A DNA stretch of 64,000 nt from Sulfurimonas sp. Its GTDB lineage: Bacteria; Campylobacterota; Campylobacteria; Campylobacterales; Sulfurimonadaceae. The stretch lies in NCBI RefSeq assembly GCF_019429335.1, contig NZ_JAHYJB010000004.1:1-64000 (forward strand), given 5' to 3'. Below, piece by piece: positions 7,072 through 23,990 of the stretch. The translations under genes and the position numbers were made by a program. The notes beneath the pieces were generated by a model. That model did no database searches. It was given only the letters and a program-made list of their open reading frames with translations, and was not told where the DNA came from. Every line of letters starts with the position of its first letter. Position 1 is the first letter of the stretch.

Positions 7072-7098
7072 AAAAGTGGAGATTCATTCACAGGGGTT
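7072..7098 (-). repeat. Single copy of the GTGGAGATTCATTCAC repeat
   Basis: AAAGTGGAGATTCATTCAC followed by AGGGG is the reverse complement, with one mismatch in the shared part, of the repeat core GTGAATGAATCTCCACTTT in the array at 17181-17480. The copy here stops within the HIT gene's downstream region and lacks the TGTAATT arm. It is therefore a partial copy of a dispersed element. Confidence 0.6.
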
Positions 7099-7103
7099 AA
7101 AAA

Positions 7104-7598
7104 CTACCCGATATATTCGGGAATCAAACTCTTAATTTTTTGATATATCTTCATAAAGTCGGTAGAGTAAACCCTGCTCTGCGCAACGGATGTCATAAAG
7201 TTTGTATCTCTCTTCCAGCGCGGGACGATATGAAAGTGTACATGCTCCGCAATACCTGCTCCTGCGTCTTTTCCAAGATTCATGCCGATATTTACTCCGT
7301 GAGCGCCGAAGCCCTCTTTTAAAAGTCTCACGCTTTTTTGCGCCAAATCGCTCATGTGAAGCCAAGTCTGGCTCGGCAACTCTTCTAGTTTGTCGGTATG
7401 AAGATGGGGAATAATCATAAAGTGCCCAGGAGTGTACGGATAGCGGTTCATAACTATAAAACAGTGCTCGTCTCTGTAAAGTACATGCAACTCTTTATCC
7501 TCTTTCTCATTAGAGCTTATGTGACAAAAAACACACCCTTCTATCTTCTTGTTTGTCACGTACTTATCACGCCACGGCGCATATAAAATATCATTCAT
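7104..7598 (-). CDS. HIT family nucleotide hydrolase/transferase
   Basis: A 164-residue protein with the histidine triad AEHVHFHIVPRW (about residue 117), the catalytic motif HxHxH of nucleotide hydrolases and AP4A phosphorylase-like HIT enzymes. Upstream residues C23xxC26 and a later histidine could bind zinc, as in galactose-1-phosphate-uridylyltransferase-like and AP4A-type HIT proteins. The natural substrate is not predictable. It is separated from the TRAP genes by a hairpin and appears to be its own unit. Confidence 0.9.
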   Translation of the reverse strand: MNDILYAPWRDKYVTNKKIEGCVFCHISSNEKEDKELHVLYRDEHCFIVMNRYPYTPGHFMIIPHLHTDKLEELPSQTWLHMSDLAQKSVRLLKEGFGAHGVNIGMNLGKDAGAGIAEHVHFHIVPRWKRDTNFMTSVAQSRVYSTDFMKIYQKIKSLIPEYIG

Positions 7599-13298: not shown

Positions 13299-15208
13299 TG
13301 ATGCACCGCCTGTATCTCAAATACTCCCTCGTCCGTCTCAACAACTGCAAATATCTTGTCAGGCGAGCCTTCAGGCGGTTTAAAACTGAGCTCTATCGGC
13401 GGTTCTATAAGCTTGAAAATAAGCTCGTTGTGTCCTATCCATCTGTCTCTGTTTATAATCCTTGCATCGACGATATTATCTTGAAAAGATGCTGTTTTTG
13501 TGGTTAGAAGATGAAGTTTGTCGTTTTTTACTCTATACTCGTTTGTTATTCCCTCAAGATGCTCTTGAGCCTTTGTAAACTGCTTATATTTTGTCACAAA
13601 CGCTTCTGGCATTTTTATACCGTTTTGCTTAAAATGCATCAATCTTTTTTTTATTTCATTAAAAGAGTCTGTGTTATCTTTAATCATCTTTTTATATTTA
13701 TCTACCTCTTTTTTTATCTCTTCTACGCTTACTCTAAGTTCATCAATCTCATGCTTGTTTTCACCTAACCCTTCTTGTTTGTCTTTTTGCATTAGAGGGT
13801 CTATTGTGAAGACATTCTCACTTCCCTGAAGCTTTTGAATCTCGATAAGTCTAGAAGCCGTTGCTTTGACGTAAGAGGCGCAGATGCCTATCTCTATATC
13901 TTTTGCTCTTATGTTTCCGCCTACGGCTTCGACGATTTCTACTTTTTTGCCCTCAACTATTCCGTGTTCAAGTCTGGTTATTTTTATATTGTCGCCTATT
14001 GCCGTGCCTTTATGCACGTTAATTGTCAAATCATTGGCTTTTATCTCTGAGGTTTTGTGAGTTTGACCCTCTATAGTAGCTCTTTTAGCATGTACTTTTG
14101 CGTTTGGTCCGACATTGCCTTTTATGTCTATCTCGCTTACCTCAACCTCCATGCCACTGCCTATGGCATCTTTTTGGGAGTCATTCTCTTTTACGCTTAG
14201 AGACACATCCGAATCAAGACCCGTAGAGATAGAGCCTGTAGTTTTAAAGCTGATTTCTCCTACATCCATATCCGACTTTATCTGGTAAACTTTTCCGTCA
14301 AGGCTTATATATCCGCTTGTCTTTGCACGGTAGAGCACATTATCTTTATTATCTACAATCTCGATGGTTTCGTTAACCGTAAAATCAGGTGCATGTTTTA
14401 CTTCAGGCTCGGGAGGCTCCATATATTCGCCACGGCAATTTCTTCCCGGCTTTCCTTTTTTTGGCTTTATATATTCCATCAAAAGGTCGCCCTCTACAAC
14501 ACTGTGGATAAATCCCCTATTGGAGTAGTCAACACGCTCGTTTTCGTTCTTTTGTCCTAATGTGTTCTCTTTGTCATAATGCAAAATAAGCTCGTCGTTT
14601 ATTGTCGGTGTTGGTTCATACGCATCTGAGATAAGGATTGTCTGGTTTTTATCGTAGCCAATTTTTCCATCAACCTTTGCAAGAGCGGAAACTCTTGAAA
14701 CAACCTCTGGAACCATCTCCTCAAATATATCCACAAGTATTCCGGCGCGTATTTTGCTCTTCTTTATATAATTTAAAAAATCCTCTTCAAATTTTGGACT
14801 TGAAATAGCTTCGGAACCTGCTTTTATGCTTAGATAGACCTTGCACTTTGTGGCATTTGCCCCGACAGCGGCATGAAAGTTTTTAAATACGTCGTTATCC
14901 TCTTTGGAGTAAATCTCAATCTCGTATATCTGTTTTATCTCAAAATTTTGATTTAGTATTTCTGTAGCATCGTCAAGCTCTCGAAGTTCGTTTTTGCTTC
15001 TCTCTTCCCAGTCGGATTCAATTTTATCTTTATTTGTTCTTGTATATGTCTGCACTTCAAGGATGTCAAAATCTAAACTGCCTGTACTTACGCCGTTTCT
15101 TTTTGCTATCTCGATTATCTCTTTTGCAACATTTTGGGTTTTTACAACGGTAGGACGAATTTTTTTTACTACTTGTTCTGTTTTATTGTTTGAACCAAAT
15201 AATCCCAT
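13295..15208 (-). CDS. FapA/DUF342 family protein
   Basis: A protein of about 637 residues from the chosen start (MGLFGSNNKTEQ at 15208, preceded by GAGAAT). Upstream in-frame ATGs up to 15262 are possible. It has a conserved DUF342 (FapA) core, about residues 230-470 with KPKKGKPGRNCRGE, SGYISLDGKVYQI and the repeated beta-rich IKGNVG...GHTHK-like segments, followed by a coiled coil (about 500-590). FapA-type proteins are polymer-forming beta-solenoids linked in some bacteria to polar localisation and flagella. Its function here is unclear. It leads the leftward operon into ruvA. Confidence 0.82.
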   Translation of the reverse strand: MGLFGSNNKTEQVVKKIRPTVVKTQNVAKEIIEIAKRNGVSTGSLDFDILEVQTYTRTNKDKIESDWEERSKNELRELDDATEILNQNFEIKQIYEIEIYSKEDNDVFKNFHAAVGANATKCKVYLSIKAGSEAISSPKFEEDFLNYIKKSKIRAGILVDIFEEMVPEVVSRVSALAKVDGKIGYDKNQTILISDAYEPTPTINDELILHYDKENTLGQKNENERVDYSNRGFIHSVVEGDLLMEYIKPKKGKPGRNCRGEYMEPPEPEVKHAPDFTVNETIEIVDNKDNVLYRAKTSGYISLDGKVYQIKSDMDVGEISFKTTGSISTGLDSDVSLSVKENDSQKDAIGSGMEVEVSEIDIKGNVGPNAKVHAKRATIEGQTHKTSEIKANDLTINVHKGTAIGDNIKITRLEHGIVEGKKVEIVEAVGGNIRAKDIEIGICASYVKATASRLIEIQKLQGSENVFTIDPLMQKDKQEGLGENKHEIDELRVSVEEIKKEVDKYKKMIKDNTDSFNEIKKRLMHFKQNGIKMPEAFVTKYKQFTKAQEHLEGITNEYRVKNDKLHLLTTKTASFQDNIVDARIINRDRWIGHNELIFKLIEPPIELSFKPPEGSPDKIFAVVETDEGVFEIQAVHQ

Positions 15209-15312
15209 ATATTCTCTATCCATAGCTAAATTTTTAAAAATTAAACTCTCCATTTTAATCAAATATTTGTTAAACTTTCGTAAAAGTTATACTATTTCTC
15301 CAAAAGAAGCCC

Positions 15313-16719
15313 ATGTTTAAAGCAATTTTCACCAATAGTTTTGGAATTTTATTCTCAAGAATTTTAGGATTTTTACGAGATATGATGACTGCTTCGGCTC
15401 TTGGAGCAAACATATACAGTGACATATTTTTCGTCGCTTTCAAACTCCCAAATCTTTTTCGCCGTATCTTCGCAGAGGGCGCTTTTACGCAGGTTTTTAT
15501 CCCCGCTTATGCACGCTCACGGCACAAGTCGGTCTTCTCGGCAAAAATATTTACTATTTTTCTCTCAATCATACTTATCATCACACTGCTTGTAAACATT
15601 TTACCCTCACTTGCAACTCAGGCAATCGCGGTTGGTTTTGATGAAGAGACAGTTAAACTTGCCTCTCCTTTTGTTGCTATAAACTTCTGGTATCTTCCGC
15701 TTATATTTACAGTAACGTTTCTAAGTGCCATGCTTCAGTACAAACGCCACTTTGCAACCACAGCATTTTCTACTGCGCTTCTAAATATATCGCTTATCGC
15801 GGCTCTGTATCTATCCTCCGACAAAAGCCACGGCGAGATAGTCTACTACCTTAGTTTTGGAGTTGTTGCAGGCGGTATCTTGCAGCTTATATCGCATCTT
15901 ATTGCCATACATCAGCTTGGTCTTTTAAAACCTTTTTGCGGCGGGTTTAAATATCTCAAACTAAAGTCATATAAAATCAAAAGCGAAACAAAAAAGTTTC
16001 AAAAGCAGTTTTTTCCTGCAATGTGGGGAAATTCAACGCCACAGGTTAGTGCATTTTTGGACACTTTTTTGGCATCCTTTTTGGTCTCTGGCTCTATCAG
16101 CTATCTCTACTATGCAAACCGCATATTTCAACTCCCTCTTGCTCTTTTTGCTATTGCAACCTCAATCGCGCTTTTTCCAACCATTGCCAGATATATAAAA
16201 AATAACGACGAGACAAAAGCCAGACTCTTTATGGAGAAGGCTTTTTGGTTTTTGGCGTTTTTACTTACAGCCAGCACAATCGGCGGCTATATACTCTCAC
16301 ATGAAATCATCTGGCTTCTTTTTGAGAGAGGCTCTTTTACTGCACAAGATACACTCCAAAGCGCGGCGGTTTTACAGATGTACATGATAGGACTTCTTCC
16401 GCTTGGACTTCAAAAACTCTTTTTGCTCTGGCTCTATGCGAACGAACAGCAGATGAGAGCCGCAAAAATCGCCACTTTTTCTCTGCTGTTTTATGTTGTA
16501 TCCGCACTCACATTTATCGGCCCGATGGGAGCAAGCGGTTTGGCTCTTGCAGGTACAATCGGCGGATTTTTAGGATTTGCTATGACCGTTAAAGCTTTTG
16601 GAGTAAAAAACTTTTTTGATATAGTTGCATCAAAAAAAGCGCTATATCTTGCAGCAGGCTCTGTTTTGCTCACTATACTCCTTCTGCTTTTTAAAGATTT
16701 TATAGCTGTTTATATTTAA
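15313..16719 (+). CDS. murJ: Lipid II flippase MurJ
   Basis: A 468-residue membrane protein with about 12-14 helices. The N-terminus has the SFGILFSRILGFLRDMMTA motif with the conserved GFLRD arginine, and PNLFRRIFAEGAF follows, both hallmarks of MurJ/MviN. It flips lipid II to the periplasm. It diverges from the fapA-ruvA-ddl-murF operon across a gap of about 100 bases, keeping peptidoglycan genes together. Confidence 0.96.
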   Translation: MFKAIFTNSFGILFSRILGFLRDMMTASALGANIYSDIFFVAFKLPNLFRRIFAEGAFTQVFIPAYARSRHKSVFSAKIFTIFLSIILIITLLVNILPSLATQAIAVGFDEETVKLASPFVAINFWYLPLIFTVTFLSAMLQYKRHFATTAFSTALLNISLIAALYLSSDKSHGEIVYYLSFGVVAGGILQLISHLIAIHQLGLLKPFCGGFKYLKLKSYKIKSETKKFQKQFFPAMWGNSTPQVSAFLDTFLASFLVSGSISYLYYANRIFQLPLALFAIATSIALFPTIARYIKNNDETKARLFMEKAFWFLAFLLTASTIGGYILSHEIIWLLFERGSFTAQDTLQSAAVLQMYMIGLLPLGLQKLFLLWLYANEQQMRAAKIATFSLLFYVVSALTFIGPMGASGLALAGTIGGFLGFAMTVKAFGVKNFFDIVASKKALYLAAGSVLLTILLLLFKDFIAVYI

Positions 16720-16732
16720 AAACGGTTTGCTC

Positions 16733-17176
16733 TCAAAAGTCTAAAGGGCTGATAACTTTAGCTTTGTTCATCTCTGAAACAACATGCATGTATATCATTA
16801 TAGTTTCAACACTTTTGTGTCCTAAGAGTTCTTGAATTGAACGCAAATCTATCCCAGTTTGTAGTAGATGTGTAGCATACGAATATCTAAAAATATGGGA
16901 AGTAACGCGCTTATTTAAATTTGCTTTTTTGGGATGCTACTTTGATATTTCTACCAAGTGTTTGTGGGTGAACATGATGTCGCCTCTTTTCTTTACTTCA
17001 AGGTTTGTAACCAACTCAACTTAACTAATCAATTGCTGCTTTAGCTTCAAGGGCAATGGAACAGTTCTATCTTTTAATGACTTAGAATCCCAAATATATA
17101 CCTTATCAAAACCAAAGTCTATATCCTTGATTCTCAAGCTTAAAGCCTCGTTCATTCTTAGTCCACAGCCGTACAT
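16733..17176 (-). pseudogene. Tyrosine recombinase remnant, integron-integrase-like
   Basis: On the minus strand one frame reads MYGCGLRMNEALSLRIKDID ... DRTVPLPLKL, meets a TAA at 17021-17023, continues through KKRGDIMFTHKHLVEI to a TAG at 16937-16939, and then reads [34 protein letters not shown] and a final stop at 16733-16735. These include the catalytic Arg (GLRMNEAL), HxxR, LLGH and Tyr of tyrosine recombinases. The TVPLPLKL and RGD/H...KRVTSH spacing resembles IntI. The N-terminal half is missing, cut at about 17176 where the repeat array begins. Two stops and only about 148 codons against about 320 make it dead. Confidence 0.75.
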
Positions 17177-17499
17177 CTACAAATTACACCTCAGTGAATG
17201 AATCTCCACTTTTTGCATACAAATTATAAGCCAAACGAAAATATTTCACAAATTACACCCCAGTGAATGAATTACACCCCAATTACACCCCAGTGAATGA
17301 ATCTCCACTTTTTGAAAATTACACCCCAGTGAATGAATCTCCACTTTTTGTAAATTACACCCCAATTACACCCCAATTACACCCCAAATTACACCCCAGT
17401 GAATGAATCTCCACTTTTTGTAAATTACACCCCAATTACACCCCAGGGGAAAATTACACCAAAATTACACCCCAGAGGTAGCATCTCCACTTTCTATAA
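17177..17499. repeat. Array of transposon-end-like repeats (AATTACACCCC + GTGAATGAATCTCCACTTTTTG)
   Basis: About 300 bases are built from two modules: the 11-mer AATTACACCCC and the 22-mer AGTGAATGAATCTCCACTTTTTG-like tail. Full 34-35-base units start at 17181, 17281, 17315 and 17386; a truncated unit runs 17250-17270; free 11-mers stand in tandem at 17270-17280, 17353-17385 and 17430-17445; a degenerate unit (AATTACACCCCAGAGGTAGCATCTCCACTTTC) ends the array near 17495. Read on the other strand, each ends GGGGTGTAATT, like an IS terminus beginning TGT. There are no unique spacers and no cas genes. Best explanation: piled-up ends of an IS (IS21- or IS481-like multiple end repeats are possible), family not determined. 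Confidence 0.7.
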
Positions 17500-17681
17500 A
17501 ATCACATATACAGATTTAAACTAAAATCTTTCAATTTGCAATATGTTTAATTGTAATGAATATAAATAGTTAAGATACATGATTAAAAGATAGGATTGAC
17601 AAATGCCGACAAGAATGAGAGTTGATTTAGGAGATTCACTCACATGATGGATACAATTATGTATATATCATTTAATGATAA

Positions 17682-17714
17682 AATATACATCATTTTGCTA
17701 AAATGGTGTATATT
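17682..17714. promoter_or_regulatory. Inverted repeat at the antitoxin promoter
   Basis: AATATACATCATTTT (17682-17696) and AAAATGGTGTATATT (17700-17714) are inverted repeats with one mismatch around GCT. A smaller palindrome, ATCATTTAATGAT, lies at 17668-17680. They sit 15-60 bases before the antitoxin start, the expected place for an autoregulatory operator. The 17500-17680 stretch between the array and this site holds no recognisable gene. Confidence 0.45.
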
Positions 17715-17729
17715 AAAATATTGGAGTTC

Positions 17730-17966
17730 ATGATGTTAGCTTTAAAACAAGAACAACTTTTTGAAGAAATAGATATTTTACCAATAGATTTAAAGACTGA
17801 AATTGTGGATAAGATATTGGCTAGTATTACACCGCTAAGCAGTGAAATATACAAATTATGGATAAAAGAAGCTAACAAAAGAAAACAAGAAATCGAGTCA
17901 AATTCCGTTAAGTTAGTTGATGGAGATGAAGTTTTTAAAAAAATATCTCAAAGACTCCACTCATAA
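17730..17966 (+). CDS. Addiction-module antitoxin (Unstab_antitox-type)
   Basis: The frame gives 78 residues from ATG 17730, chosen because GGAG lies five bases upstream; the earlier in-frame ATG at 17703 falls inside the inverted repeat. The sequence LFEEIDILPIDLKTEIVDKILASI ... WIKEANKRKQEIESNSVKLVDGDEVF (shown in part) matches the small acidic antitoxins annotated as addiction module proteins, which pair with ParE/RelE-type toxins. The C-terminal VDGDEVFKKI is typical. The stop abuts the toxin start codon (17967), indicating coupling. With the partner toxin frameshifted, it may now be an orphan. Confidence 0.75.
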   Translation: MMLALKQEQLFEEIDILPIDLKTEIVDKILASITPLSSEIYKLWIKEANKRKQEIESNSVKLVDGDEVFKKISQRLHS

Positions 17967-18258
17967 ATGACCTACTCTTTCCACCCAGATGCTGAACTTG
18001 AATTAAATGCTTCGGTTGATTATTATCAAGAGTGCAAAGATGGACTTGGAGGAGAATTTGCATATGAAGTTCAAAAAAACAATCCAAAGAATTTTAGAAT
18101 ATCCAACTGCTTGGCAAAAACTGAATATGGATATAAGAAGATGTTTAACAAATAGATTTCCATTTGGAATAATTTATTTTCAAAGAGATAATAAAATTAT
18201 TATTTTAGCTGTTATGCAACTAAACAGAAAAGCAAACTATTGGAAAAGTAGAAAATAA
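17967..18258 (+). pseudogene. ParE/RelE-type toxin, frameshifted in an A7 run
   Basis: The toxin begins MTYSFHPDAELELNASVDYY and reads normally to FAYEVQK. It then runs into the homopolymer A7 at 18073-18079. Downstream the family sequence (TIQRILEYPTAW, RRCLTNRFPFGIIY, ILAVMQLNRKANYW) continues one frame over and ends at 18258. Removing one A restores a continuous protein of about 96 residues, the normal size of ParE/RelE mRNA interferases or gyrase toxins. Three explanations fit: a disabling mutation, slippage on the A7 run, or a sequencing error. Confidence 0.72.
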
Positions 18259-18289
18259 CGATAGGTGTAACAAATCATAGGAAATACAA

Positions 18290-18472
18290 ATGACAGCACT
18301 TTGCAATTTACATGTAAAGAAAAATGTAACCAACCTCAGTATAAATTCTGATTTACTTAAAAAAGCAAAAGAAATGAAAAACTGGGAGTCTAAAAACAAA
18401 ACTTCTATCAGCATCTACAATGAGAAAATTGCAAAAAACGGTACTTTCAGCGATGAAATAAGAAGTTTTTAA
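18290..18472 (+). pseudogene. Orphan, internally deleted CcdA-family antitoxin
   Basis: The 60-residue product has the CcdA N-terminal ribbon-helix-helix part (KNVTNLSINSDLLKKAKEM) joined directly to the C-terminal toxin-binding tail (NWESKNKTSISIYNEKIAKNG, then TFSDEIRSF). In intact relatives about 20 residues of the DNA-binding second helix and linker lie between them. No CcdB toxin follows; cysS starts 14 bases downstream. It looks like a decayed module remnant. A weak GGAAAT ribosome-binding site precedes it, so a short peptide could still be made. Confidence 0.6.
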
Positions 18473-18486
18473 AAGGAAATAATTTA

Positions 18487-19887
18487 ATGACAATTTACGA
18501 TTCAGTACAAAAAACAAAAAGGGAGTTTATCCCTCAAGAGAGCGGCAAAGCAAGCCTATATGTGTGCGGTCCTACCGTTTATGATGATGCCCACTTGGGA
18601 CATGCAAAAAGCGCTCTTGTTTTTGACCTTTTAACTAGAGTTTTAAAGGCTGAGGGCTACGATGTTACCTATGCCAGAAACATAACGGATATCGACGATA
18701 AAATCATAAACAAAGCAAGCCAGAGCGGCAAGAAGATAAAAGAGATAACAGATTTTTATACCGATGCTTACCATGAAGAGATGGGCAAACTCGGTGTTAC
18801 AAAACCAAATATCGAGCCAAAAGCGACCGAATCGCTTGAAGCGATGTTTGAGCTAATTCAGAGGTTACTTGATAACAAACACGCATATAAAACTGCCGAT
18901 GGAGATGTCTACTTTGACACCTTAAGCGACAGTGAGTACCTGAAACTCTCCCACAGAGTTCAAAACGAAGATGAGAAGCTTCAAAGAGTAGAGAGCTCTG
19001 CGCAGAAGAAAAACAGTGCGGATTTTGCTCTATGGAAGAGTGTAAAAGACGGCAGCGTTACGTTTGACTCCCCTTTTGGAGCTGGTCGTCCCGGATGGCA
19101 CCTAGAGTGTTCTGCGATGATTGAAAAACATCTGGCACAACCAAATAAAAAATTTGCGGTAGATATTCACGGCGGGGGAGCAGACCTGCTCTTTCCACAC
19201 CACGAAAACGAAGCCGCGCAGACAAGATGCGCAACTTCACATTCACTCGCCAACTACTGGATGCACAACGGTTTTGTAAACATAGACGGCGAAAAGATGT
19301 CAAAGAGCCTCGGAAACAGCTTCTTTTTAAAAGACGCACTTAAAATTTACGACGGCGAGGTTTTACGCTTCTACCTTTTAAGCACTCACTACAGAAGCAA
19401 CTTCAACTTTAATGAAGATGATTTGCTCTCATCTAAAAAGCGTCTGGACAAGATTTACAGAGTGAAAAAACGCCTTTTTGGTTTGAGTAGTGAAAATGTC
19501 AAAACTCCATTTAAAGATGAGCTGCTGAAAGTTTTGGGAGATGATTTGAACGTATCTGCTTCGCTCGCACTCATTGATGAGATGATTACATCTGCGAACG
19601 AGACTCTCGACACTTCAGGAAAGCACAAAGAGCTCAAGCGCGACACGCTCTCAAACCTTGCGTTCACAGAAGATGTTTTGGGTTTTGGTGTAAAAAACCC
19701 TTACGAGTATTTTCAGTTCGGCGTCAATGAAGAGACAAAAGCAAAAATCAATACGCTAATAATGCAGAGAGATGAAGCAAAGAAAGCAAAAGATTTTGCA
19801 ACTTCAGACAAACTTCGCGATGAGATTTTGGCGTTTGGCGTTAGTTTGATGGACACGGCTGCGGGAACGTTTTGGGAGAGAGTTTAA
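18487..19887 (+). CDS. cysS: Cysteinyl-tRNA synthetase
   Basis: A 466-residue class I synthetase. It has the N-terminal CGPTVYDDAHLGHAKS (HIGH-type motif, zinc cysteine), the GWHLECSAM zinc region, HHENEAAQ and the KMSKSLGN signature near residue 265. It charges tRNA-Cys. Length and motifs are normal. Its stop (TAA) overlaps the ATG of the following methyltransferase gene, so the two are co-translated. Confidence 0.98.
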   Translation: MTIYDSVQKTKREFIPQESGKASLYVCGPTVYDDAHLGHAKSALVFDLLTRVLKAEGYDVTYARNITDIDDKIINKASQSGKKIKEITDFYTDAYHEEMGKLGVTKPNIEPKATESLEAMFELIQRLLDNKHAYKTADGDVYFDTLSDSEYLKLSHRVQNEDEKLQRVESSAQKKNSADFALWKSVKDGSVTFDSPFGAGRPGWHLECSAMIEKHLAQPNKKFAVDIHGGGADLLFPHHENEAAQTRCATSHSLANYWMHNGFVNIDGEKMSKSLGNSFFLKDALKIYDGEVLRFYLLSTHYRSNFNFNEDDLLSSKKRLDKIYRVKKRLFGLSSENVKTPFKDELLKVLGDDLNVSASLALIDEMITSANETLDTSGKHKELKRDTLSNLAFTEDVLGFGVKNPYEYFQFGVNEETKAKINTLIMQRDEAKKAKDFATSDKLRDEILAFGVSLMDTAAGTFWERV

Positions 19888-20801
19888 TGAGCATATCTGA
19901 GATTGAGGCGCATTTAAGAGAAAACTCAGCAAATTTAATAAATGAATTTAAGAGACTTTTTCACGGTCGCGGCGGACTTTATGAGGGGTGGAGACACTTA
20001 ACCATTGATTCTATTGACGATATTTTAAGCGTAGCTCTCTACTTTGAATCTGAGGGCACTCTGGAAGCCGAGCTGATAGAGATGTTAAAAAACTTCATCA
20101 CTGCAAGCGGGCATAAAACTATAGTGGTGCAAAGAAGATACATAAAAGGAAGTCCGAGCGAGGTTGTAGAGGGCGAACTTAAAGAGAATCTTTTTGCGGT
20201 TGAGAATGGAATGAAGTTTAAACTAAACCTTCTCTTAAATCAAAACAGCCTCTACTTCCCCGATATGAAAAACGCCAGAGCATATGTGAGAGAAAACGCA
20301 AAGGACAAAAGAGTGCTCAACCTCTTTAGTTATACCTGTGCATTTAGCGTTGCGGCAAAACTTGGAGGCGCCATAAGCGTCTCAAACATAGATATGAGCA
20401 AAAGCGCGCTCTCTGTGGGAAAAGCAAATCATCATCTAAACAACATTGATGCAAGAGGGGTGAGTTTTTTGCCATACAACATACTAAAATCCTTCTCACG
20501 CATCAAACAAAACGGTCCATATGATTTGGTTATTATCGACCCGCCGACACTTCAAAAAGGAAGTTTTTCAGCTATTAAAGATTATGGGAAGATTGTAAAA
20601 AAACTGCCGGAAATAGCCTCAAACGACTGCACAGTTTTGGCATCCCTAAACTCTCCTGACTTGGATTCGAGTTTTATAACAGATATGATGAGCGAATATG
20701 CGCCAGAGTTTAAATATGTAAAACGGCTTGAAAACTTAAAAGAGTTTGCAAGCCAAGATGAAGAGAGAAGCGTTAAAAATCTGGTTTTTAGTCGCAGTTA
20801 G
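19887..20801 (+). CDS. Class I SAM-dependent methyltransferase, rRNA RlmK/RlmI-like
   Basis: The start is placed at ATG 19887 (MSISEIEAH), overlapping the cysS stop; the in-frame ATG at 19872 would extend into cysS. The 304-residue protein has a Rossmann methyltransferase domain in its C-terminal two thirds: KRVLNLFSYTCAFSVAA (SAM motif I), SNIDMSKSAL (motif II) and VIIDPPTLQKG (motif IV). This set resembles the large-subunit rRNA methyltransferases RlmI/RlmK. The exact target is unknown. It converges on the DJ-1 gene with a 14-base overlap. Confidence 0.85.
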   Translation: MSISEIEAHLRENSANLINEFKRLFHGRGGLYEGWRHLTIDSIDDILSVALYFESEGTLEAELIEMLKNFITASGHKTIVVQRRYIKGSPSEVVEGELKENLFAVENGMKFKLNLLLNQNSLYFPDMKNARAYVRENAKDKRVLNLFSYTCAFSVAAKLGGAISVSNIDMSKSALSVGKANHHLNNIDARGVSFLPYNILKSFSRIKQNGPYDLVIIDPPTLQKGSFSAIKDYGKIVKKLPEIASNDCTVLASLNSPDLDSSFITDMMSEYAPEFKYVKRLENLKEFASQDEERSVKNLVFSRS

Positions 20802-22697: not shown

Positions 22698-23990
22698 GTG
22701 GGACTACTTAGCTGGGGAATGTACCCAAAGATAAAAAACAAAATCTTCTCTTTAAGAAGCAAAGAAGCGCTTGGCGCATATATCGAAAAAACGGATGAGT
22801 TCATCCCGCACGGAAACGGCAGAAGCTACGGTGATTGTGCTTTAAACGAAAATATTCTCTACGCTAAAAGATATAACAATTTCTTAGCATTTGATGAGCT
22901 TAGCGGCACTCTTACATGTCAAGCTGGAGTTCTTCTTAGCGAAATACTCGACACCTTTGTGAAACGCGGATGGTTTTTAAAAGTGACCCCTGGAACCAAG
23001 CTTATCACCATTGGCGGAGCGATTGCAAGCGATGTTCACGGAAAAAACCACCACGTAGAGGGGTGTTTTAGCGAATGCGTTTTAGCGTTTGACATCATGT
23101 TGCCAAACGGCGAGATAAAGAGCTGTAAAAAGGGCGATGAACTCTTCCGTGCAACATGCGGAGGGATGGGACTTACCGGCGTAATACTAGCTGCAAAAAT
23201 AAACCTCAAAAAAATAAACTCCAAAAATATAAACCAGACAACCATAAAGACAAAAAACCTAAAAGAGACTTTTGAAGCCTTTGAAAACTATCAGGAGATG
23301 CCCTACTCCGTGGCGTGGATAGATTGTTTGGCAAAAGACGAGGAGATTGGAAAGTCTCTGCTTATGGTCGGAGATTTTGCCGACGACGGCGACTTGGATT
23401 ACAAAAGCAAAAAGAAGCTAAGCATCCCGTTTAACTTCCCCTCTTTTGCACTTAATAACCTGAGCGTAAAAGCTTTTAACACTCTCTACTACGCAAAAGC
23501 GAAAGACGGTGTATCCAGACAAAAAGTAGATATAGACACCTTTTTCTACCCGCTCGATGCCATAGGCAACTGGAACAGAATCTACGGAAGCGGCGGTTTT
23601 ACGCAGTATCAGTTTATCCTGCCAAAAGAGAGCAGTTTTGAGGGTTTAAAAGAGATTTTAACCAAAATTTCTGCTTCAGGCAAAGGCTCATTTTTGGCAG
23701 TTTTAAAACTATACGGCAAAGAGAATGGAAACTACCTCTCATTTCCGCTAGAGGGCTACTCGCTCGCGCTTGATTTTAAGATAGAGGCGGGTCTGTTTGA
23801 GCTTTTAAACACTCTTGATGAGAGTGTTGTTAAGTACGGCGGCAGAATTTATCTTACAAAAGATGTGCGCGTCAGCTCTGAGATGTTTGAGAAGGGCTAT
23901 CCGCTAGTAGAGAAGTTTCGTGCGTTTAGAAGAGAGAACAACATGGATAAAAAATTAAATTCACTCCAATCAAAAAGGATAAAAATATGA
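22698..23990 (+). CDS. dprE1: Decaprenylphosphoryl-beta-D-ribose 2'-oxidase DprE1
   Basis: A 430-residue FAD oxidoreductase of the vanillyl-alcohol oxidase fold. The FAD-binding segment HGNGRSYGDCALNEN (about residue 35), the PGTKLITIGGAIASDVHGKNHH core and the C-terminal YGGRIYLTKDVRVSSEMF match DprE1; the lysine in LTKD aligns with the catalytic Lys418 of M. tuberculosis. DprE1 oxidises the ribosyl lipid to the 2'-keto form. At the place of the mycobacterial cysteine hit by benzothiazinones (about Cys387) this protein has alanine (SLALDF). The start is GTG at 22698. It overlaps dprE2 by four bases. Confidence 0.92.
   Translation: MGLLSWGMYPKIKNKIFSLRSKEALGAYIEKTDEFIPHGNGRSYGDCALNENILYAKRYNNFLAFDELSGTLTCQAGVLLSEILDTFVKRGWFLKVTPGTKLITIGGAIASDVHGKNHHVEGCFSECVLAFDIMLPNGEIKSCKKGDELFRATCGGMGLTGVILAAKINLKKINSKNINQTTIKTKNLKETFEAFENYQEMPYSVAWIDCLAKDEEIGKSLLMVGDFADDGDLDYKSKKKLSIPFNFPSFALNNLSVKAFNTLYYAKAKDGVSRQKVDIDTFFYPLDAIGNWNRIYGSGGFTQYQFILPKESSFEGLKEILTKISASGKGSFLAVLKLYGKENGNYLSFPLEGYSLALDFKIEAGLFELLNTLDESVVKYGGRIYLTKDVRVSSEMFEKGYPLVEKFRAFRRENNMDKKLNSLQSKRIKI

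Follow-up and report, generated by a model that had tools for sequence, protein, structure and literature searches.

Tip-anchored partial copies of a TIRYT-type transposon end appear to form a nested array in Sulfurimonas sp.

A nested array of transposon-end copies

In the window, that is, the whole 64,000-nucleotide stretch of a Sulfurimonas sp. contig analyzed here, a repeat array at 17182-17495 (+ strand) consists of nested partial copies of one transposon end, which share their outer end and differ in where they stop inward. The repeated unit is the terminal inverted repeat (TIR) of a one-gene element whose Y1 HUH transposase belongs to the TIRYT/RAYT kind, and it is nearly certain that the array is one of TIRYT-type ends. 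The best explanation, to which we give a little more than an even chance, is that the 5' end of a TIRtron acquired extra partial end copies, stacked outside it, through transposase nicking, inward extension and early religation, steps that would fit the layout described below.

The array comprises 13 same-orientation pieces, each starting at AATTACACC; the 34-mer is present three times in perfect form and once with one change, alongside a diverged unit and several 11-19-mers. The core AATTACACCCC occurs in 11 exact copies within 17251-17473 plus one single-mismatch copy at 17182, all on the + strand, whereas 0.69 matches were expected by chance and 12 were never reached in shuffles. The nearly spacer-free, one-orientation packing of 34-mers and tandem 11-mers described in the initial annotation is thus confirmed far above chance. 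Its 34-mer is a real repeat, although the conserved unit measures 33 nt (profile positions -8 to +24), and the repeats do lie within its bounds of 17177-17499, but the structure continues into a deleted transposase element to ~17660. A CRISPR, already discounted there, was rejected on the repeat layout, with almost no spacers and an irregular period.

Splitting at AATTACACC yielded pieces of 69, 19, 11, 36, 36, 11, 11, 12, 36, 11, 18 and 11 nt; the 13th unit is diverged and passes into the element's own, non-repeat leader. The outermost piece (17182-17250, +, 69 nt) contains a one-mismatch TIR (AATTACACCTCAGTG...) and ~34 nt of subterminal leader, and aligns across both with the intact 5' ends of loci L072, L079, L016 and L130; it is a tip-anchored partial copy of the element 5' end including part of the leader. 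Two short tip-anchored pieces, AATTACACCCCAGTGAATG (19 nt) and AATTACACCCC (11 nt), occupy 17251-17280 (+), and two full TIR units in 36-nt pieces, with the endings TTTTTGAA and TTTTTGTA, lie at 17281-17352 (+). Three tip pieces of 11, 11 and 12 nt (17353-17386, +) and a full 36-nt TIR unit (17387-17422, +), all delimited by AATTACACC, precede three further tip pieces of 11 nt, 18 nt (AATTACACCCCAGGGGAA) and 11 nt (AATTACACCAA) at 17423-17462 (+). The diverged unit at 17463-17495 (+, AATTACACCCCAGAGGTAGCATCTCCACTTTC) is taken as the genuine 5' TIR of the resident element, running on into leader and ATG as in intact elements. It carries AGAGG where the outer units carry AGTGAATG, and because of this difference some outer units may not descend from the innermost TIR. 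A second TIR variant, CCCCAGGGGTTGAATCTCCACTTT or CCCCAGAGGTTGAATC, is present in the genus (genomes G062 and G066) and resembles the innermost array units (17434-17451), and locus L193 combines a CCCCAGGGGTAAC TIR variant with its own transposase gene; this type may represent a separate TIRYT subfamily.

Tight packing in one orientation would suit a selected array of binding sites, either iterons or operators, for a protein of replication, recombination or regulation; the initial annotation had raised the first two of these functions. The irregular spacing (11, 12, 18, 19, 36 and 69 nt), the truncation of units at differing inner points, the absence of the array from this site in the congeners examined and the lack of an Rfam match all speak against it, leaving it highly improbable. 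A draft assembly of 73 contigs with perfect internal repeats may have miscounted the 36-nt and 11-nt units, but that the array as such is a draft-assembly artefact is the least credible reading, since most pieces differ from their neighbours and other genomes have the nested pattern too, one of them, G012 (L130), being a single contig.

The unit as the end of a TIRYT-type element

The 33-nt unit has the consensus AAAttACACCCCwGTGAATGAATCTCCACTTTT, and in a profile of 170 units conservation extends from -8 to +24 and ends at both edges. A pattern search found it dispersed in 69 of 135 congeneric genomes, with at most 22 copies per genome, and the reversed pattern gave zero matches over the same 135 genomes. 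Solitary units are scattered across the genus. The source genome carries ~6 dispersed copies besides the array, among them a solitary TIR unit with a degenerate tip (GTTTTTAACCCCTGTGAATGAATCTCCACTTTT) elsewhere in the window at 7072-7104 (-). The proposal in the initial annotation that the repeats are mobile-element ends is therefore borne out by mobile copies elsewhere in the genome and genus. Units occurred in 14 of the 15 congeners with a transposase match of at least 60% identity, compared with 55 of the 120 other congeners (p = 0.00035); named relatives were mostly Sulfurimonas, Sulfurovum, Sulfurospirillum and Arcobacter MAGs. In genome G095 (L062, L081, L114-L122), 22 TIR units were found, many at contig ends, which suggests a recent burst of units that broke the assembly. 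At several loci (L015 792-2230, L013 1571, L022, L048 and L061), TIR units run straight into a second dispersed repeat that has a GTTCCCAtcgtcctcgaTGGGAAT hairpin, so that two repeat families make up a composite.

A full transposase gene is present in the source genome on another contig. The intact protein runs from MPTRLRVDLAGYHH... to KSGDSFTGV and stop, and was also read as MPTRLRVDLAGYHHIINRGVN...DNHYHLLIE...YIE.NP...KSGDSFTGV and stop, with the HYH motif and conserved tyrosine (YIE.NP) present in the alignment. It matched Pfam Y1_Tnp (PF01797) above the cut-off (E 1e-12 to 1e-13), NCBIfam REP_Tyr_transpos (NF047646) at 67-71 bits, under the cut-off of 80, and HTH_38 at residues 222-252 (E 0.0002-0.005, under the gathering score); a PDB sequence search gave no match at 0.001. 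TIRs lie at both gene ends, and the 3' inverted unit overlaps the last codons in the source genome and in relatives' copies. Long flanking TIRs were present in L018, L021, L072 and L130, and the inverted-repeat score was at least 13 in 27 of the 28 relatives screened.

These features resemble TIRYTs and TIRtrons as described by Di Nocera et al. 2013 (PMC3733652): a RAYT-like Y1 HUH transposase, long non-hairpin TIRs, a 3' TIR overlapping the gene, and TIRs that also occur singly, in dimers and in groups. That study and a later one (PMC6006769) give GGGGWSAS as the TIR motif of the majority of TIRYTs. Several relatives ~43-47% identical in protein have GGGGTCAG in their TIRs; these distant Campylobacterota members fit GGGGWSAS as given there, whereas the focal subfamily has GGGGTGTA, and its tip, which reads GGGGTGTAATT on the outward strand, departs from that motif. 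Because of this departure, the element is assigned to the TIRYTs by its protein, by the layout of its inverted repeats, by the absence of a hairpin and by an inner TIR half that is similar. It probably corresponds to TnpAY1 subclass 2.1 of Quentin et al. 2018 (PMC6006769), a subclass marked by a C-terminal helix-turn-helix domain, for which the focal protein has the sub-threshold HTH_38 match.

REP/BIME systems with RAYT (TnpAREP) likewise have dispersed short ends tied to a related Y1 transposase and form clusters, but the focal unit has no hairpin or GTAG-tagged palindrome and the array is head to tail with truncations. A GTAG REP/BIME (hairpin-REP) identity was rejected, as hairpin folding of the unit was no better than that of shuffles (DNA folding z-scores -0.02 to -0.68); an Rfam search gave no match. 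IS21 elements have several repeats at their ends, an analogy drawn in the initial annotation. It was rejected, the IstA-type DDE transposase domain (PF22483) being absent from the source genome and the focal ends belonging to a different enzyme class, that of a Y1 HUH transposase. IS91 and Helitrons transpose one-endedly by a rolling circle; the focal system is comparable in its HUH nuclease and in having one end fixed and one variable, but differs in its Y1 enzyme, symmetrical TIRs and 11-69 nt pieces apparently made locally.

Tip-anchored duplications across the family

Exact tandem duplications were sought around all units with no start position assumed, in genome collections holding one genome per species. 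They were found near 25 of 171 units (14.6%) as against 52 of 3100 control windows (1.7%), loci of one genome being not fully independent. Outside the window, 19 of 24 duplications have their start between -9 and -7, where TIR conservation ends on the outside; 6.9 such starts were expected, and 0 of 100000 simulations reached 19. The inner ends of the duplications range from +1 to +32. Two events (L066 and L011) were clearly not tip-anchored. Distant TIRYTs with unrelated tips (e.g. TAACTTAAGTACCG and TCTTTGGGGTC) had duplications at 7 of 54 ends compared with 36 of 3079 controls (1.2%); these take in several flanking bases, and the fixed edge is less sharp there.

The duplications could have been copied from the adjacent tip or brought in from other elements. 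Neighbouring tip pairs were identical at 12 of 12 bases in 15 of 28 cases; random donors gave 0.7, and never more than 5 in 5000 draws. The 15-of-28 figure partly escapes the bias of an exact-copy screen, in which recent local events are preferred and imported copies could be missed. Neighbouring tips also hold rare local variants in common (AAACAACG, CCTATAA, AGAAACA and TAACTTAAG). We favour copying on the spot, from the local tip, over transposition from elsewhere. The alternative of serial insertion, in which TIR fragments of other copies enter the tip of a resident element by one-ended transposition into a preferred target, can point to the solitary 33-nt units dispersed in the genus, by which TIR-only pieces do spread, and to the outer array units that differ from the innermost TIR. 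The rare variants, common to neighbouring tips far more often than random donors allow, make it an unlikely source. Repeated one-ended transposition, as suggested in the initial annotation, matches the common-start, variable-end layout, but local copying is favoured over import.

Proposed mechanism and ordinary repeat expansion

HUH enzymes cut one strand, hold a 5'-phosphotyrosine and leave a 3'-OH for priming synthesis or strand transfer (PMC8266576). Local copying could proceed by such chemistry. The transposase would nick one strand at the TIR outer edge and stay bound to the 5' phosphate; synthesis from the flank's free 3'-OH would run inward and duplicate the tip plus a stretch of varying length behind it; the 3' end so formed would then attack the phosphotyrosine and be religated early, producing flank-[tip...x]-[tip...x...rest]. 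Every new tip would again be a site, so that repeated rounds could build a nested array.

Its main competitor is ordinary replication slippage or unequal recombination at repetitive element ends, with the transposase uninvolved. Segments 17316-17375 and 17386-17445 match at all 60 nt, and this perfect segmental repeat, together with the 11-mer runs, looks like ordinary repeat expansion; 10 of the 24 duplications outside the window show 1-3 nt of microhomology. The other 14 of 24 lack it, however, the outer breakpoint keeps to the TIR edge, distant members with unrelated tips behave alike, and the unit folds into a hairpin no better than shuffles do. Because the outer ends are fixed, the inner ends variable and homology often absent, an event starting at a defined nick is favoured over plain slippage, which we regard as improbable though worth serious weight. 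Ordinary expansion probably contributed as well, for example to the perfect 60-nt repeat. Set against all rivals together, nick-primed copying is at about even chances.

Tip-anchored partial tandem duplications could, more tentatively and at somewhat under an even chance, be a footprint that TIRYT-type Y1 transposases leave in vivo in general, arising by nick-primed inward synthesis and premature religation. If so, these enzymes would use replicative, rolling-circle-like chemistry at their own ends. The spread of short repeats through bacterial genomes by RAYT/TIRYT enzymes has been described as unresolved (PMC8266576), and the proposed copying offers a simple route by which clustered repeats could form around one single end. 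A fixed outer and a variable inner breakpoint also yield a testable prediction on cut position and use of the 3' end. In the parts covered of the TIRYT/TIRtron literature, no report of nested tip-anchored partial tandem copies was found.

Resident element and insertion site

Downstream of the innermost TIR, a 5' leader of the TIRYT element was assigned at 17496-17602 (+) by similarity to intact elements; the alignments run through the ATG, with 86% identity to L130 (160 nt) and 91% to L072 (116 nt). The stretch 17543-17587, considered as an integron attI site, was rejected as such, being TIRYT leader of intact elements. An internally deleted TIRYT gene follows at 17603-17647 (+), with its ATG at 17603 and nine N-terminal codons (MPTRMRVDL) joined to C-terminal codons (GDSLT and stop). 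The 3' TIR remnant GTGAGTGAATCTCC, a common TIR variant, lies at 17630-17643 (-), inverted relative to the array and complementary at 13 of 14 positions. Judged from these remains, the resident element is an internally deleted copy of ~200 bp that is probably dead in cis.

The element interrupts what is left of an integron integrase gene, with murJ and cysS on either side. A C-terminal IntI remnant at 16720-17180 (-) ends where the array starts and is 57.6% identical to the intact integrase adjoining murJ in L088, which matches TIGR02249 at 420 bits (cut-off 265); the N-terminal half was not found in 14001-20500. Where a congener locus carries both murJ and cysS, the two genes mostly lie almost side by side, and none of the congener loci read has the array at this site. 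The initial annotation had named intact conservation of the array at the same site in distant genomes, with no mobile copies, as evidence against its reading; this was looked for, and 0 of the congeners examined carry the array there.

An integron integrase directly follows murJ in at least one congener (L088), and other genes are inserted there in L086 and L091, which suggests that the murJ site is a chromosomal integron platform. Beyond the element, 17703-18258 holds a toxin-antitoxin-like pair, an antitoxin with PF09720 followed by a ParE/RelE-like toxin frame that by eye is apparently frameshifted and whose C-terminal part gave no Pfam match. A 15-nt tandem repeat, AAAAATAAACCCCAA, is present in 2.7 copies at 23195-23235.
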